Below are positions 5,657 through 22,708 of a DNA stretch of 41,696 bases, piece by piece; within the stretch, counting starts at the first letter, position 1; every line of letters begins with the position of its first letter. The stretch covers positions 1-41,696 of the forward strand of contig JAQTMQ010000008.1 of the NCBI GenBank assembly GCA_028714235.1. Direction: 5' to 3'. Under the pieces are notes generated by a model. It was not told the origin of the DNA, did not search any database, and saw only the letters and a program-made list of their open reading frames with translations. The position numbers and the translations under genes were made by a program. This DNA comes from Candidatus Iainarchaeum sp. Lineage in GTDB: Archaea > Micrarchaeota > Micrarchaeia > Burarchaeales > Fermentimicrarchaeaceae.

Positions 5657-6037
5657 ATGGTCCGCCGCGTCTGGCTTGACGCAAACTTCCTGATGCTTCC
5701 CGCCCAGTTCAAGGTGGACATTTTCGCGGAGCTTGAGCGGGTGATTGAAGAGCCGTTCGAGCTTCTCGCCCCGAGCGGCGTGCTCGGCGAGCTCGGGAAC
5801 GTTTCCGCGGGGAGGGGAATCGATGCCGCGGCCGCGCGCGTCGCCTTGAAGATTGCGGGGAGCGGGAGGGTGAAAATCGTCCAAAGCGAGGGGCCGGTTG
5901 ACGACTGGCTTGCGGAGAAGGCGGGCGAGGGCGACGTAGTGTGCACGAACGACCTCGGGCTCATCAGGAGGCTGCGGGGGAGGAAGGTGCGCCGCGTCCA
6001 GATGGTGGGCAGGAGCCACCTCGGGTTCGCGAGGTGA
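5657..6037 (+). CDS. Fcf1-like PIN-domain protein
   Basis: A 126-residue single-domain PIN protein. The first acidic site is in VRRVWLDANFLMLP (D8), followed by the Fcf1-type FKVDIFAELERVI, and the C-terminal acidic site is in VVCTNDLGLIRRLR. In archaea these small proteins are annotated as Fcf1/Utp23-like rRNA-processing nucleases or generic PIN ribonucleases. No antitoxin gene accompanies it. The ATG at 5657 is chosen for its family-like N-terminus; an SD-like AAGG stands 6 nt before it. The last 17 nt of the gene recur as part of an exact 18-bp direct repeat at 7206-7223. Confidence 0.8.
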   Translation: MVRRVWLDANFLMLPAQFKVDIFAELERVIEEPFELLAPSGVLGELGNVSAGRGIDAAAARVALKIAGSGRVKIVQSEGPVDDWLAEKAGEGDVVCTNDLGLIRRLRGRKVRRVQMVGRSHLGFAR

Positions 6038-6038
6038 G
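6021..6038 (+). repeat. 18-bp direct repeat, copy 1 (end of PIN gene)
   Basis: tcgggttcgcgaggtgag, exact match to 7206-7223. It covers the last codons and stop of the PIN gene and ends about 24 nt after the stop of the leftward repeat-protein gene, the same offset as copy 2 has from the second paralogue. Confidence 0.9.
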
Positions 6039-6061
6039 CCGCCTTCATGCGCTTCCGCTCG

Positions 6062-7132
6062 CTACCACCGGTATTCCTTGTATCGCATTTCCTCAAGGAA
6101 CGATTCCCTGTCTCTTTTGCATCTTTCCAATAGCTCCCCAATATAGAGATTGCCGTATTTTTTGTGTCTTTCCCATAGCTCTCTCGCAACCCCTTCGATT
6201 TCAGGCATATTGCAATTCTTATAAAGGCTACTACCGATATCTACTAGCGTTGTCGACCTCGCCTCGTGCAAGTACCCCAAACCCAATATCCCCAATTCTA
6301 TGGAGTCGGTGCTTAACACGAAATCACGGAGCAGCTCTTCGTAGTGTTTTCTAGCGAAGAAGTCGTCGTCCGGTCCTCCATATTCGCCTTTAATGATGAA
6401 GCTCAATGTCGTGGGCTCGTTGGCCCAGTCTTTAATGTGTCTTTTCGCGACCTTCTGGAGTTCGGGCAGATTGCATTCGTGTTCCCCATCAGCGATACGC
6501 TTTACGGATGTGGGATCTTTGCATATGAGGTGTAGCAATGACGTTATACCCATCCCCTCATCGCTTGTCCATTCCACGGAGAGCTTGGTTGCAGGGAAGT
6601 CACCTTTTTGAAATGATTCAAGTACGCTCCCGGGGTCGTCAGCCCAAGCGCGTAAGGCGCCCTTTGCAGATTCTTGGAGTTCGGGCAGATTGCATTTGTA
6701 CGTGTCTGGGAAGTGGGCATGCGGGGCGTATCTGGCAATACAGTCTGCCTCTGTTGGGAGATGTTTGACCAGGTAATCCAATCCGCGCTCCCCCAACTCC
6801 AGCGAGCTAGTGCTTCTCACGAACTGGCTGATAAGGTAACAGTCGTTTTTACCGATAGCTTTGTCTAATGCTGCGGGGTCGTCGGCCAAGGCCTGAAAAC
6901 CCTTTTTTGCGAGTGTCTTGAGCTCCGGAAGCACGCACTTCTCCTCAACGGCAAGATCGAAAACATACCCAGGGGATTTCTCGGTCAGGTAATCCAATCC
7001 GCGCTTCCCCAACTCCAGCGAGCTTGTTTCCATCAAAAAATCGCGGATTTGTATGGTGTCCCCATGTTTGAACGCCTCTTCCCACTTCTTCGGATTGTTA
7101 GCCGCTTTGAATGCCTTGAAAATCGAGACCAT
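6062..7132 (-). CDS. Repeat protein of unknown function, paralogue A
   Basis: A 356-residue all-helical, soluble protein that I cannot assign to a family. About four degenerate units of 73-85 residues each contain an A-(D/N)-(D/E)-P start, an SxELGxRGLxYL segment, and an (E/K)C(N/V)LPEL-x(3-5)-AK close; a Cys is kept at the same place in each unit. The layout suggests an alpha-solenoid scaffold. It is paralogous to the gene at 7248-8069 over the N-terminus (MVSIFKAFK against MVSILKIFK), promoter and SD. The ATG at 7130-7132 follows GGGTGG. Bases are less GC-rich than in the flanking genes and codon choice is freer, suggesting acquisition. No catalytic motif is seen. Confidence 0.75.
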   Translation of the reverse strand: MVSIFKAFKAANNPKKWEEAFKHGDTIQIRDFLMETSSLELGKRGLDYLTEKSPGYVFDLAVEEKCVLPELKTLAKKGFQALADDPAALDKAIGKNDCYLISQFVRSTSSLELGERGLDYLVKHLPTEADCIARYAPHAHFPDTYKCNLPELQESAKGALRAWADDPGSVLESFQKGDFPATKLSVEWTSDEGMGITSLLHLICKDPTSVKRIADGEHECNLPELQKVAKRHIKDWANEPTTLSFIIKGEYGGPDDDFFARKHYEELLRDFVLSTDSIELGILGLGYLHEARSTTLVDIGSSLYKNCNMPEIEGVARELWERHKKYGNLYIGELLERCKRDRESFLEEMRYKEYRW

Positions 7133-7161
7133 CCGACCACCCGTTCAACACGCGAGGTTTT

Positions 7162-7172
7162 GGTATATAAAT
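7162..7172 (-). promoter_or_regulatory. TATA box of paralogue A
   Basis: Minus-strand ATTTATATACC, about 30 nt before the ATG at 7132, with the SD GGGTGG (7137-7142) between. The arrangement is nearly the same as before paralogue B (8101-8112), so the promoter was copied with the gene. Confidence 0.7.
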
Positions 7173-7205
7173 CTATGGCATGGTCGCGCCCTCCGCGGGG
7201 CCGCA

Positions 7206-7223
7206 TCGGGTTCGCGAGGTGAG
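7206..7223 (+). repeat. 18-bp direct repeat, copy 2
   Basis: Exact copy of 6021-6038. Here it is a non-coding remnant of the PIN gene's 3' end lying between paralogue A's promoter and paralogue B's stop. It marks the junction of a tandem duplication of about 1.2 kb. Confidence 0.9.
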
Positions 7224-7247
7224 GGTCACTTGCCGCCAAGCATCTCG

Positions 7248-8069
7248 TCAGTCCATTTTGTGTAGCGCTTCCGGGCGGCGAGCTCTGGCTCGCAATGATC
7301 GCGCACGGGCCATCGCGTCCACGGCCACGTCCGTATTGGCGAACGCCTCGTTTCCGTGGTATTTAACCACTGCGCCTAACGCAACCCCCTCAAGATGTCC
7401 AACGTTGCACTCAACGTTCCCCATGGCGATATCCACTGCTTTCTTCGGTTCCACCCGTGCCAAGAAATTCAATCCCCGTATCGCCAATTCCAATGAGTTA
7501 GTATTCGCCACCAAATAAAGGGCCTGGTCGGGTCTGTATTCACTGATTATTTTGTCTAATGTTTCGGGGTCGTCGGCCCAAGCCCCAATGACTTTTTTTG
7601 CAACCCCCTGAAGTTCACGCAGATTGCACTTAGTGACTCCATTGGCGATATCCCCTACGAACGAGTAGTAAGTGTATCCACTGGACATAAGGTACTTCAA
7701 CCCGCGCTCCCCCAAATCTTTCGAACTCGTCCTCTTCACCACCTCAAAGACTACGCTGGGTGCATCCTGGACGAAGTTTCTACGGATTAATTTGTCGAAT
7801 GCGGCGGGGTCGTCGGCCCAGGCCTGGAAAGCGTTTTTTGCGAGTGCCCTGAGTTCCGGAAGCTTGCATTCCGTTTCCCCTACCGCAACGTCGTGAACCC
7901 AATCGGGGCGCCGAACAACCAAGTAATCCAATCCGCGCTTCCCCAAATCCACTGAGCCTGTCTTTTGCAAAAGCGTGAGGACTTGTAGGGTCTCCTCTTT
8001 AGTGATTGCCTCATCCCACCTCTTGGGGTCGTCAGCCTTTCCTTTGAATATTTTAAGAATCGAAACCAT
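7248..8069 (-). CDS. Repeat protein of unknown function, paralogue B
   Basis: A 273-residue relative of the 6062-7132 protein with three units (about residues 11-85, 86-160 and 161-235), then a charged Arg/Ala-rich tail (ARARSLRARARRPEALHK) that differs from paralogue A. Each unit has the ADDP start, the LGxRGLxYL core and a C-x-L-x-EL near the end (CKLPEL, CNLREL, CNVGHLEG). No enzyme motif, signal peptide or membrane segment is visible. The ATG at 8067-8069 is chosen because GGGTGAT (8075-8081) precedes it at the same distance as in paralogue A; an upstream TTG at 8075 lies inside that SD. Function unknown. Confidence 0.75.
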   Translation of the reverse strand: MVSILKIFKGKADDPKRWDEAITKEETLQVLTLLQKTGSVDLGKRGLDYLVVRRPDWVHDVAVGETECKLPELRALAKNAFQAWADDPAAFDKLIRRNFVQDAPSVVFEVVKRTSSKDLGERGLKYLMSSGYTYYSFVGDIANGVTKCNLRELQGVAKKVIGAWADDPETLDKIISEYRPDQALYLVANTNSLELAIRGLNFLARVEPKKAVDIAMGNVECNVGHLEGVALGAVVKYHGNEAFANTDVAVDAMARARSLRARARRPEALHKMD

Positions 8070-8100
8070 CCGCAATCACCCGTCTAACCTCCGAAGTTTG

Positions 8101-8112
8101 GATATATAAATC
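8101..8112 (-). promoter_or_regulatory. TATA box of paralogue B
   Basis: Minus-strand ATTTATATATC, 32-43 nt upstream of the ATG at 8069, with a GGGTGAT SD between. It matches the promoter of paralogue A in sequence and spacing. Confidence 0.7.
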
Positions 8113-8154
8113 ATGGCCGGTTGCACCCGAACGGCGGAAAAGAGGCATTCGCGT

Positions 8155-8268
8155 CTTATTTATAAACCTGCTTTCCGCAATTCAACCATTCATCTTTGCT
8201 AGGGTGCAGGAGCCGCCGCGAAAGGTAGTTAAGGGCGGAGCGATAAACTCATCCGAGTCCCGGGGGTA
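8155..8268 (+). promoter_or_regulatory. Promoter and leader of rpoE-spt4
   Basis: CTTATTTATAAACC at 8155-8168 is a good plus-strand TATA element. It leaves a leader of roughly 80 nt before rpoE, ending in the GGGGGT SD at 8262-8267. I see no clear hairpin in the leader. Confidence 0.5.
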
Positions 8269-8274
8269 ATGCTA

Positions 8275-8913
8275 ATGTTCAGGGTTTACACCGTTTCCGA
8301 CACAGTGAGAGTTGACCCGGCCTACTTCAAGATAGACTTGCCGGAATCCATCGCCATGATTTTGCGGGACAAGAACGAGCGCCGCGTGGACCCCGACTTG
8401 GGGATAGTGTTGAGCATCTGGAACCCGCGCGACATAAGCGAGGGGCGCGTGATTCCTGGGGACGGGGCGTCGTACCACAAGGTGGTTTTCGACGTGCTCG
8501 CGTACCTTCCGGAGGTCAACGAGATAGTGGAGGGGGAAGTGAGCGAGGTCGTGGAGTTCGGCGCGTTCGTGAAAATCGGGCCGCTTGACGGCCTCGTCCA
8601 CCTTTCGCAGATTACGAGCGACTTTTTGACGTTTGACAAGAAGCTGCAGGCGTTCGTGGGAAGGGAGAGCCGCAAGACCCTGAAGAAGGGCGACGTGGTG
8701 AAGGCTAAGGTTTCCGTGGTCAGCGTGAAGGGAAACATCGCGGACACGAAAGTCGGCTTGACGATGAGGCCGGACGGCCTGGGCAAGGAGGAATGGCTTT
8801 CCGCGAAGGCCGCGGGCGGCGGGAAGCCGGCGGGCGCGAGGAGCGAGAAGGTTGACACGCGGCAGAGGAGGGAGAAGCCGGACAGGAGGCAGAGGAGGGA
8901 GCGGGGCTCATAG
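8275..8913 (+). CDS. rpo7: RNA polymerase subunit Rpo7 (RpoE)
   Basis: A 212-residue stalk subunit of archaeal RNA polymerase, homologous to RPB7, that pairs with Rpo4. The N-terminal RNP-like domain begins FRVYTVSDTVRVDP, and an S1/OB domain follows (VNEIVEGEVSEVVEFGAFVKIGPLDGLVHLSQI). The C-terminus is extended by about 40 residues of basic, repetitive sequence (RQRREK...RQRRER) beyond the usual length, likely RNA-contacting. ATGs lie at 8269 and 8275; the second has better spacing from GGGGGT. It is followed 9 nt later by spt4, the usual archaeal pair. Confidence 0.95.
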   Translation: MFRVYTVSDTVRVDPAYFKIDLPESIAMILRDKNERRVDPDLGIVLSIWNPRDISEGRVIPGDGASYHKVVFDVLAYLPEVNEIVEGEVSEVVEFGAFVKIGPLDGLVHLSQITSDFLTFDKKLQAFVGRESRKTLKKGDVVKAKVSVVSVKGNIADTKVGLTMRPDGLGKEEWLSAKAAGGGKPAGARSEKVDTRQRREKPDRRQRRERGS

Positions 8914-20118: not shown

Positions 20119-20448
20119 TCAGCCTATTACCCCGATTTGGATGAGCGTTAGAACGATTTGTAGCACGACTAATGCGGCCATCACACCTGTAAGCATATTG
20201 GCTGCTTTAGTTTGATTTTCCATACTCTCCTGCAAACGTGCAATTTTACCTAAAAATTCATTGGATTTTGTGGAATTTTCGTTGAATGCCTTCATTTCAG
20301 AATTCAAGTTTGAAAATGCTACTCGCAACTCATTCAAGGTGGCACTAAACGCCTCTATTTTCTTTATGTTTTGTTGTCCTTGGAATAGTTTTATCCAACT
20401 CCGCAACTCACGACTAAAGCGCAAATCCTCCGAACCCGAAAACGTCAT
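20119..20448 (-). CDS. Small coiled-coil, tail-anchored membrane protein
   Basis: A 109-residue protein that I do not recognise. Residues 1-75 are helical with heptad character (IEAFSATLNELRVAFSNLN, then EFLGKIARLQESMENQ), and the last 25 residues form one hydrophobic helix ending at the C-terminus (ANMLTGVMAALVVLQIVLT...), so it should be tail-anchored with the coiled coil in the cytoplasm. The ATG at 20446-20448 is chosen because GAGGTGG lies 6 nt upstream; the track's earlier start lies in the SD. The gene is clearly more AT-rich than its neighbours with Asn/Ser-rich codon use, suggesting recent acquisition. Confidence 0.65.
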   Translation of the reverse strand: MTFSGSEDLRFSRELRSWIKLFQGQQNIKKIEAFSATLNELRVAFSNLNSEMKAFNENSTKSNEFLGKIARLQESMENQTKAANMLTGVMAALVVLQIVLTLIQIGVIG

Positions 20449-20547
20449 GTCCAACCACCTCAAAATAATTTTCTGCTCAGAAAGCCTTAAATCTGCTCAA
20501 AAAGTCGGCTCTTCGGCGGGCTTCTTTAGCAAAGCCGGCTGCCCTGC

Positions 20548-20560: not shown

Positions 20561-20620
20561 GCGATGCGCGCAAAAAGGAGAGTCCGTTTTTAGTGGATTT
20601 CACAGGCAAAGGTGGTCGAA

Positions 20621-22708
20621 GTGTTGGAAGGCGGAATGCTTTACCTTGGGCTGACCATAGGCGTCAGCCTCGTTTCGCTTGTCGTCGCGGCTTATTTCGC
20701 GCGCCAGGTGATAAAGTCGGACAAGGGCACGCCCGGGATGCAGGAAATCGCGGCGGCAATCAAGGAGGGCGCCGAGGCGTTCATCAGGAGGCAGTACTCG
20801 ACCATCGCGGTGCTCGCGGTCGTTCTCGCGCTCATAATTTTCGGGGTTTACGCTTACGTCGGGAGGTTTGATGCCGCGTGGCACACGGCGGCAGCGTTCC
20901 TCGCGGGCGCATTCTGCAGCGCGCTCGCGGGCATAATCGGCATGTGGATTTCGGTGCGCTCCAACCTCCGCTCCGCGGCTGCGGCATCCAAGAGCGCGGG
21001 AAGGGCGCTCTTCATCGCGCTCAGGGGCGGGGCGGTTTCGGGCTTGACCATCGTCGCGCTCTCGCTTCTCGGCGTTTCCCTCACCTACCTCGCTTTCGGG
21101 GCCGATCCCCAGGAAACCCCGCTCTTGATTGTGGGCTTCGGCTTCGGCGCGTCGTTCATCGCGCTGTTCGCGCAGCTCGGCGGAGGAATCTACACGAAGG
21201 CGGCCGACGTGGGCGCTGACCTCGTCGGGAAAGTGGAGGCCGGTATTCCGGAGGACGACCCGAGGAACCCCGCGGTGATTGCGGACCTCGTGGGCGACAA
21301 CGTGGGCGACTGCGCGGGAAGGGGCGCGGACCTCTTCGAGTCCACGGCGGCGGAAAACATCGGCGCCATGATTATCGGGGTCGCGCTTTACCCCGTCTTC
21401 GGGGTGAGCGGAGTATTGTTCCCGCTTGTGGCAAGGGCGTTCGGCCTCATCGCGACCATAATCGGAATCCTTTCCGTGCGGGAGCGGGACGGGGACGGGA
21501 AGGACCCGATGGCACCGCTCAACAAGGGGTATTACGTCACCGCGGTCCTCGCGACCATATTCTTCTATTTCGCGGTCATGTGGGGCCTGCAGCCGGTTGG
21601 CGGCGCCGCGGTGGACAAGATTTGGTTCTTCTATTCCGGCGTGATAGGGATAGTGCTCTCAATAGTGTTCATCCACATAACGCTTTATTACACGGGCTAC
21701 GGGCACAGGCCTGTTGAGGACATCGCGCGCGCGTCGCAGACCGGGCCGGCGACCAACATAATCACCGGGCTTTCGGTCGCTTTCGAGAACTGCGCGCTCC
21801 CGGCGATTGCAATCAGCGCGGCATTGATTCTCGCCTACGCGTGCGGCCAGAACAGCGGTGTCGCGAACGGCGGGCTTTACGGGACCGCGATTGCGACCAT
21901 GGGAATGCTCGCCACGTGCGCGTACATCCTCGCGATGGACACGTTCGGCCCGATTGTGGACAACGCGGGCGGAATCGTGGAAATGAGCCGCGCGGGCAAG
22001 GAAACCGAGCACAGGATGGCGAGGCTTGACGCCGCGGGGAACACGACGAAGGCGCTCACGAAGGGCTACGCGGTGGGGAGCGCCGCCCTGTCCGCGTTCC
22101 TGCTTTTCAGCGCGTACATGCAGGAGATATCCAACCTCACGGGCAAGGCGTTCACGGTCGTCAACCTCGCGGACGTGACCGTGTTCTCTGGCGCACTTCT
22201 GGGCGCGATGCTCGTCTTCCTGTTCTCCGCGCTCGCGATTCGCGCGGTGAGCGAGACCGCGCAGTACATCATCGTGGAAGTGCGCAGGCAGTTCAAGAAC
22301 AAGGGCATCCTGAGCGGAAAGGTGAAGCCGGACTACGCGCGCTGCGTTGACATTACGACGCAGGGCGCGCTCCGCAACATGGTGCTTCCCGGCCTGCTTG
22401 CGGTCGCTTTCCCGGTTGCCGTCGGCCTCCTGCTCAAGTACGAGGCGATGGCCGCCTTCCTCATGGTGGCGACGATTGCAGGCGTGCTCCTCGCGCTCGT
22501 GCTGAACAACGGCGGCGGCGCGTGGGACAACGCGAAGAAGTACATAGAGGAAGGGCATTACGGAGGGAAGGGAAGCGAGGCGCACAAGGCGGCGGTTGTC
22601 GGCGACACGGTCGGCGACCCGTTCAAGGACACGGCCGGCCCGTCGCTGCACGTGCTCATAAAGCTGCTCGGGACGCTGACGCTCGTGCTCGCATCGCTGT
22701 TCATCTGA
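20621..22708 (+). CDS. hppA: Membrane-bound proton-translocating pyrophosphatase, K+-independent type
   Basis: A 695-residue integral membrane ion pump with about 16 hydrophobic helices that couples PPi hydrolysis to H+ export. The substrate motif is intact (DVGADLVGKVEAGIPEDDPRN, then DLVGDNVGDCAGRGADLFES), as is the C-terminal DTVGDPFKDTAGPSLH. The K+-dependence motif reads GNTTKA with Lys at residue 477 (codon 22049-22051), where K+-dependent and Na+-pumping enzymes have Ala; established family rules therefore predict a K+-independent H+ pump. The start is GTG 20621 because AGGTGG ends 5 nt before it; GTG 20612 lies in the SD and ATG 20636 is an alternative. Confidence 0.95.
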   Translation: MLEGGMLYLGLTIGVSLVSLVVAAYFARQVIKSDKGTPGMQEIAAAIKEGAEAFIRRQYSTIAVLAVVLALIIFGVYAYVGRFDAAWHTAAAFLAGAFCSALAGIIGMWISVRSNLRSAAAASKSAGRALFIALRGGAVSGLTIVALSLLGVSLTYLAFGADPQETPLLIVGFGFGASFIALFAQLGGGIYTKAADVGADLVGKVEAGIPEDDPRNPAVIADLVGDNVGDCAGRGADLFESTAAENIGAMIIGVALYPVFGVSGVLFPLVARAFGLIATIIGILSVRERDGDGKDPMAPLNKGYYVTAVLATIFFYFAVMWGLQPVGGAAVDKIWFFYSGVIGIVLSIVFIHITLYYTGYGHRPVEDIARASQTGPATNIITGLSVAFENCALPAIAISAALILAYACGQNSGVANGGLYGTAIATMGMLATCAYILAMDTFGPIVDNAGGIVEMSRAGKETEHRMARLDAAGNTTKALTKGYAVGSAALSAFLLFSAYMQEISNLTGKAFTVVNLADVTVFSGALLGAMLVFLFSALAIRAVSETAQYIIVEVRRQFKNKGILSGKVKPDYARCVDITTQGALRNMVLPGLLAVAFPVAVGLLLKYEAMAAFLMVATIAGVLLALVLNNGGGAWDNAKKYIEEGHYGGKGSEAHKAAVVGDTVGDPFKDTAGPSLHVLIKLLGTLTLVLASLFI

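Follow-up and report, generated by a model that had tools for sequence, protein, structure and literature searches.

A tandem gene pair in Candidatus Iainarchaeum encoding predicted helical-repeat proteins of an undescribed sequence family

Proteins of the HEAT and ARM type are superhelices of stacked repeats, each with two or three helices and some 40 residues. The HEAT repeat comprises about 40 amino acids folded into two helices (PMC11514114), and HEAT and armadillo (ARM) repeats can resemble each other (PMC2744927). We analyzed a stretch of 41,696 nucleotides from Candidatus Iainarchaeum sp. (contig JAQTMQ010000008.1; hereafter, the window), in which two adjacent genes, P1 and P2, code for repeat proteins whose model shares with ARM/HEAT solenoids a tandem stack of all-helical repeats. 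They differ from those solenoids by a period of approximately 73 to 91 residues instead of about 40 and by a signature of their own, consisting of an invariant Cys and a DDP motif. TPR and Sel1 repeats belong to the same alpha-solenoid class, and a few Sel1 proteins occur among the weak viral matches of a structural search; however, their period is 34 to 44 residues, and their helix pattern is different from that of the P1 and P2 units. The sequence family is undescribed in the libraries searched; the kind of protein is ordinary. The genes and their units are as follows.

6062..7132, minus strand: P1 repeat protein, 356 amino acids, four units and a 28-residue tail (internal homology, third-codon-position excess)
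6884..7132, minus strand: P1 unit 1 with N-terminal leader, MVSIFKAFK... (unit alignment)
6641..6883, minus strand: P1 unit 2 (unit alignment and profile match)
6422..6640, minus strand: P1 unit 3, without P2 counterpart (unit alignment, unit-by-unit comparison)
6149..6421, minus strand: P1 unit 4, counterpart of P2 unit 3 (unit alignment, unit-by-unit comparison)
7248..8069, minus strand: P2 repeat protein, 273 amino acids, three units and a divergent GC-rich tail (internal homology)
7815..8069, minus strand: P2 unit 1 with N-terminal leader, MVSILKIFK... (unit alignment and profile match)
7575..7814, minus strand: P2 unit 2 (unit alignment and profile match)
7350..7574, minus strand: P2 unit 3 (unit alignment and profile match)

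Alignment of the four P1 and three P2 units confirmed that all seven are homologous, as first proposed; of the 73 core positions, six are invariant (P, T, L, L, C and A). P1 unit 1 matched the unit profile with an E value of 5.4e-30, the profile having been built with that unit included. The two proteins matched each other with an E value of 2e-48, and alignments shifted out of register were still significant (3e-35 to 1e-15), a result that nothing other than internal repetition gives. The similarity extends to the DNA of the units, as had also been noted: five to six copies of 55 to 67 nucleotides are repeated at 61 to 82% identity, and ggggtcgtcggccca occurs twice exactly, with near-copies elsewhere. 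The ATG of P2 is at position 8069, and a longer mechanical open reading frame (ORF) begins at a TTG at 8075. The tails of the two proteins are dissimilar, that of P2 being GC-rich. A lost fourth unit in the P2 tail was considered by reading the other frames and was rejected: one frame contains CEPEL, but its DNA shows no similarity to the P1 tail. An alternative frame of this region (7251-7349) reads CEPELAARKRYTKWTDEMLGGK followed by a stop, and it is possibly a frameshifted remnant.

Searches of Pfam, NCBIfam, PADLOC and the PDB sequences returned no match for either protein. HEAT and ARM models of Pfam matched neither the whole proteins at E values up to 1 nor any of the seven units at E values up to 10. 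The Pfam models of TPR, Sel1 and leucine-rich-variant repeats, whose helix pattern differs too, gave no match, nor did those of the DNA-alkylation-repeat families. The units therefore still stand as an unrecognized family by sequence. Nor did any enzyme, defence or viral family fit, in line with the predicted absence of an enzyme motif. A few low-scoring matches were set aside as chance: Uma2 (PF05685; E value 0.016, below its cut-off), a TilS-like match (0.097), PHROG 18696 (0.0022 across 43 residues, no stretch by itself passing the threshold), and RpoN and IFT144 among the PDB sequences (0.04 to 0.65).

A usable AlphaFold2 model was obtained for P2 together with a three-unit stretch of P1, and it rests on a two-sequence alignment. 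In this model, residues 1 to 243 of P2 are all-helical, with a pLDDT of 88 and a pTM of 0.76, consistent with the solenoid-like repeats originally proposed. Prediction of the whole of P1 alone was poor (pLDDT 60), and we treat the Foldseek result from the P1 model as supportive only. Each modeled unit has five helices in identical order, short-short-long and then short-long, three times over. It can be read as three plus two, an ARM-like hairpin set and a HEAT-like one. The DDP motif begins helices at residues 88-96 and 168-176, and the C-x-L-P-E-L motif begins those at 72-85, 152-165 and 226-238. The top Foldseek matches in the PDB were mostly ARM/HEAT scaffolds, namely, APC, HspBP1, designed armadillo proteins, Vac8 and importin alpha. 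All of them were weak, with E values of at least 0.026, none at or below 0.001, and TM scores of at most 0.30 for the listed PDB matches. The likeness to ARM/HEAT proteins is thus one of class and not of membership. The structure prediction and structural search that had been suggested as checks accordingly returned an all-helical model whose nearest class, at a weak level, is ARM/HEAT.

In every unit, the invariant Cys stands just ahead of the final helix. The unit columns contain no conserved His or second Cys beside it, and it shows neither the conservation in homologues nor the pairing with polar or catalytic residues that would mark a thiol enzyme or a metal site. In five relatives from a sister genus, described below, a Leu stands at this position, which suggests that the predicted role of the Cys is structural, as the hydrophobic neighbor of a helix cap, rather than catalytic or that of a functional motif.

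The pair lies between a PIN_9 gene and rpoE', antisense to both, with genes for a base-excision-repair glycosylase (HhH-GPD) and a tyrosyl-tRNA synthetase also in the neighborhood. No toxin, defence nuclease, ATPase, transmembrane effector or partner enzyme is found beside it, nor is there a defence-island context, and no tRNA that might mark an integration site is present in the window. The PIN gene directly precedes rpoE' in the five genomes of the sister genus, as it does in G008 and G013. A gene for a proton-pumping pyrophosphatase is found just upstream of rpoE' in g3, g4 and four other genomes of the order; in the Candidatus Iainarchaeum genome, this gene is located at 20612-22708 instead. 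The repeat genes are absent before rpoE' in all these relatives. The pair is thus peculiar to its lineage within a conserved neighborhood of housekeeping genes and does not belong to an operon. Across the order, the interval before rpoE' varies, containing the PIN gene directly, the pyrophosphatase gene in either orientation, or the repeat pair (window 5657-8910; L061-L064, L066, L071). Directly upstream of the pyrophosphatase gene in the window is a second orphan ORF of low G+C content (20119-20463, minus strand; 41% G+C, codon adaptation index [CAI] 0.22), which by eye looks like a coiled coil with a membrane helix and has no Pfam match.

The expected lower G+C content was borne out, at 0.50 and 0.53 for the two genes compared with 0.60 to 0.68 for correctly read neighbors. 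Their third-position G+C (0.59 and 0.60 versus 0.77 to 0.90) and CAI (0.37 and 0.38 versus 0.60 to 0.80) differ in the same comparison, giving the codon usage a foreign look. The prediction that each gene has a private promoter held as well. Only two TTTATATA boxes occur in the window, each located 32 to 41 bp upstream of the ATG of P1 or P2 and on the matching strand.

7164..7171, minus strand: P1 TATA box, TTTATATA (site scan, shared promoter block D6)
8103..8110, minus strand: P2 TATA box, TTTATATA (site scan, shared promoter block D6)

The block D6, containing the TATA box and the leader, is common to both genes and 78% identical. A ribosome-binding-like site directly precedes each ATG (GGGTGGT in P1, GGGTGAT in P2). 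A TATA box at such a spacing and a site just before the ATG are usual for promoters and ribosome-binding sites in archaea. A sigma-70 promoter scan found none, the sigma-70 model not being applicable to archaea. Between paired P1 and P2 units, third codon positions carry 109 of the 267 differences, an enrichment (p = 0.006), and dN/dS is about 0.45 to 0.8. Judging from these values, constraint on the two genes appears weak but present.

Unit-by-unit comparison paired P1 unit 1 with P2 unit 1 (54% identity, dS 0.62), P1 unit 2 with P2 unit 2 (49%), and P1 unit 4 with P2 unit 3 (33%), leaving P1 unit 3 without a partner. As the units pair off one to one, the repeated structure is older than the separation of the genes. 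With dS between units mostly above 1, most unit duplication appears to predate the gene duplication, and P1 unit 3 is the sole candidate for a recent gain, or else was lost from P2. The DNA between the two copies contains a footprint of their origin.

6012..6038, plus strand: PIN-domain gene, 3' end (final codons with the stop), from which the vestige derives (DNA repeat comparison)
7197..7223, plus strand: 27-bp vestige of the PIN 3' end, tandem-duplication footprint (24/27 identical to 6012..6038)

The PIN 3' end and its vestige are 23 and 24 bp from the respective P1 and P2 stop codons, and the next-best match to the 27 bp in the whole window is 18/27. The presence of this vestige between the copies, at matching spacing, shows that the pair arose by tandem duplication of a whole gene, more recently than most of the unit duplication. 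The proposal that units are being duplicated within genes is therefore correct with regard to unit duplication as such, but that process is mostly old, and the recent event was the duplication of the entire gene.

Full units are restricted to the source genome, as determined with the unit profile in 301 genomes of the phylum and 395 relatives. Viral contigs, phages, plasmids and other genome contigs gave no match in scans seeded with exact peptides, which are blind to distant relatives. In the sister genus (g2), all five genomes searched code for a 118-residue protein with a single unit (loci L029-L033). The profile of this protein aligned with the unit profile with an hhalign score of 33.3, whereas 200 column shuffles reached no more than 17.1, and the protein scored above all 204 other ORFs compared. 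In the reverse search, it matched P2 unit 2 and nothing else in the source genome (E value 0.014). The alignment spans both halves of the unit over its full length and includes TNSxxxGxRGLEYL and the NSP helix cap. The protein is thus a probable distant single-unit relative of the P1 and P2 units; we grade the kinship as probable, not certain, because the candidate tested had been picked as the best scorer. Matches of a combined profile in two g19 genomes were rejected, as they correspond to a conserved protein that lacks any unit motif and looks like a transcription regulator. They indicate that single-profile E values of about 1e-3 are within chance, and the kinship therefore rests on the shuffles, the ORF comparison, the reciprocal match and the alignment.

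Unlike P1 and P2, the g2 protein has one unit and no tandem array, and Leu replaces the Cys (LNSP versus CNLP). Its gene lies away from the PIN-rpoE' site: each of the five g2 genomes has it just upstream of, and overlapping, an Asn_synthase-domain gene (L029:6908-8094, L030:1272-2473, L031:1476-2785, L032:1151-2268, L033:6580-8162). It thus heads an apparent operon, and the two products possibly form a protein pair. A glutaminase-like domain was found in one of the two Asn_synthase gene copies scanned. The homologous Asn_synthase genes found in the source genome, g3 and g4 have no such small gene directly before them.

P1 and P2 are probably a lineage-specific pair of soluble alpha-solenoid adaptors or scaffolds. 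Each unit of about 73 residues would consist of two helical-hairpin (armadillo/HEAT-like) repeats, and the units would stack into a curved rod that serves as a protein-binding adaptor or scaffold. The sequence marks would then be signatures of the fold: DDP and (C)N-x-P-E-L would be helix N-caps, the Cys a hydrophobic residue immediately ahead of the cap, and TSSxELGxRGLxYL the helix that packs the core. The exposed positions that vary between units would form the binding face. After the duplication, the copies would have diverged, as reflected by dN/dS, the different tails and the gain or loss of one unit; such divergence is as expected if each copy binds a partner of its own or its own variant of a shared partner. 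An adaptor role would be the default guess for any alpha-solenoid. In a more far-reaching version, which we regard as rather improbable, the pair represents a new fast-evolving alpha-solenoid family restricted to one archaeal family, in which a stand-alone unit, as in the sister genus, was amplified in tandem in this lineage. The resulting modular binding proteins would diversify through added units and duplicated genes, and the row of Cys residues along the rod, absent from the single-unit form, may then add a function such as redox sensing or metal binding.

Low G+C content, foreign codon usage, the lineage-restricted distribution, the high dN/dS of paired units (0.45 to 0.77) and a P2 tail unlike that of P1 are also what one would see if these were accessory genes in decay, taken up from a mobile element or virus and duplicated a single time, that today have hardly any function, or none, and are drifting. 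We consider this unlikely, since both ORFs are intact with their core residues kept, both genes have retained block D6, third codon positions are enriched in differences between paired units, and the exact-peptide scans of viral contigs, phages and plasmids gave no match. A chance or antisense ORF as the source of the repeat pattern is suggested by overlapping ORFs on the opposite strand, but its probability is negligible: the seven-fold internal homology of the proteins already refutes it, and the confident predicted fold, the codon-position signal, and the promoter and ribosome-binding-like sites argue against it as well.

HEAT-like repeats are found in some defence proteins, and low G+C content, lineage specificity and paralogues that diverge and change in repeat number would suit variable scaffolds for recognizing an invader, whether to sense it or to block it. 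Defence or counter-defence is nevertheless highly unlikely given the lack of a PADLOC match and neighbors (rpoE', PIN_9, the HhH-GPD glycosylase and tyrosyl-tRNA synthetase genes) that include no effector genes and form no defence island. Thus, the interaction half of the original prediction of an accessory interaction or defence role is probable; the defence half finds no support in the PADLOC search or among the housekeeping neighbors. HEAT-like solenoids such as AlkD bind DNA, and the location of the pair exactly between the PIN gene and rpoE' could point to nucleic acid binding, or to a part in regulating transcription or RNA processing alongside the products of these two adjacent genes. 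This is very unlikely, as the pair is antisense to both neighbors with its own promoters, no relative has the pair at this site, and the DNA-alkylation-repeat families do not match.

The view of this probable adaptor or scaffold pair as the best candidate for an undescribed system is not supported: no partner enzyme, nuclease or defence gene accompanies it, and it stands alone, antisense and with its own promoters. P1 and P2 reveal no new system; what they add to the alpha-solenoids is an undescribed repeat sequence family. They also offer a clean small example of how repeat proteins originate in tiny archaeal genomes, with a probable single-unit relative, tandem units, and a gene duplication that left its footprint.
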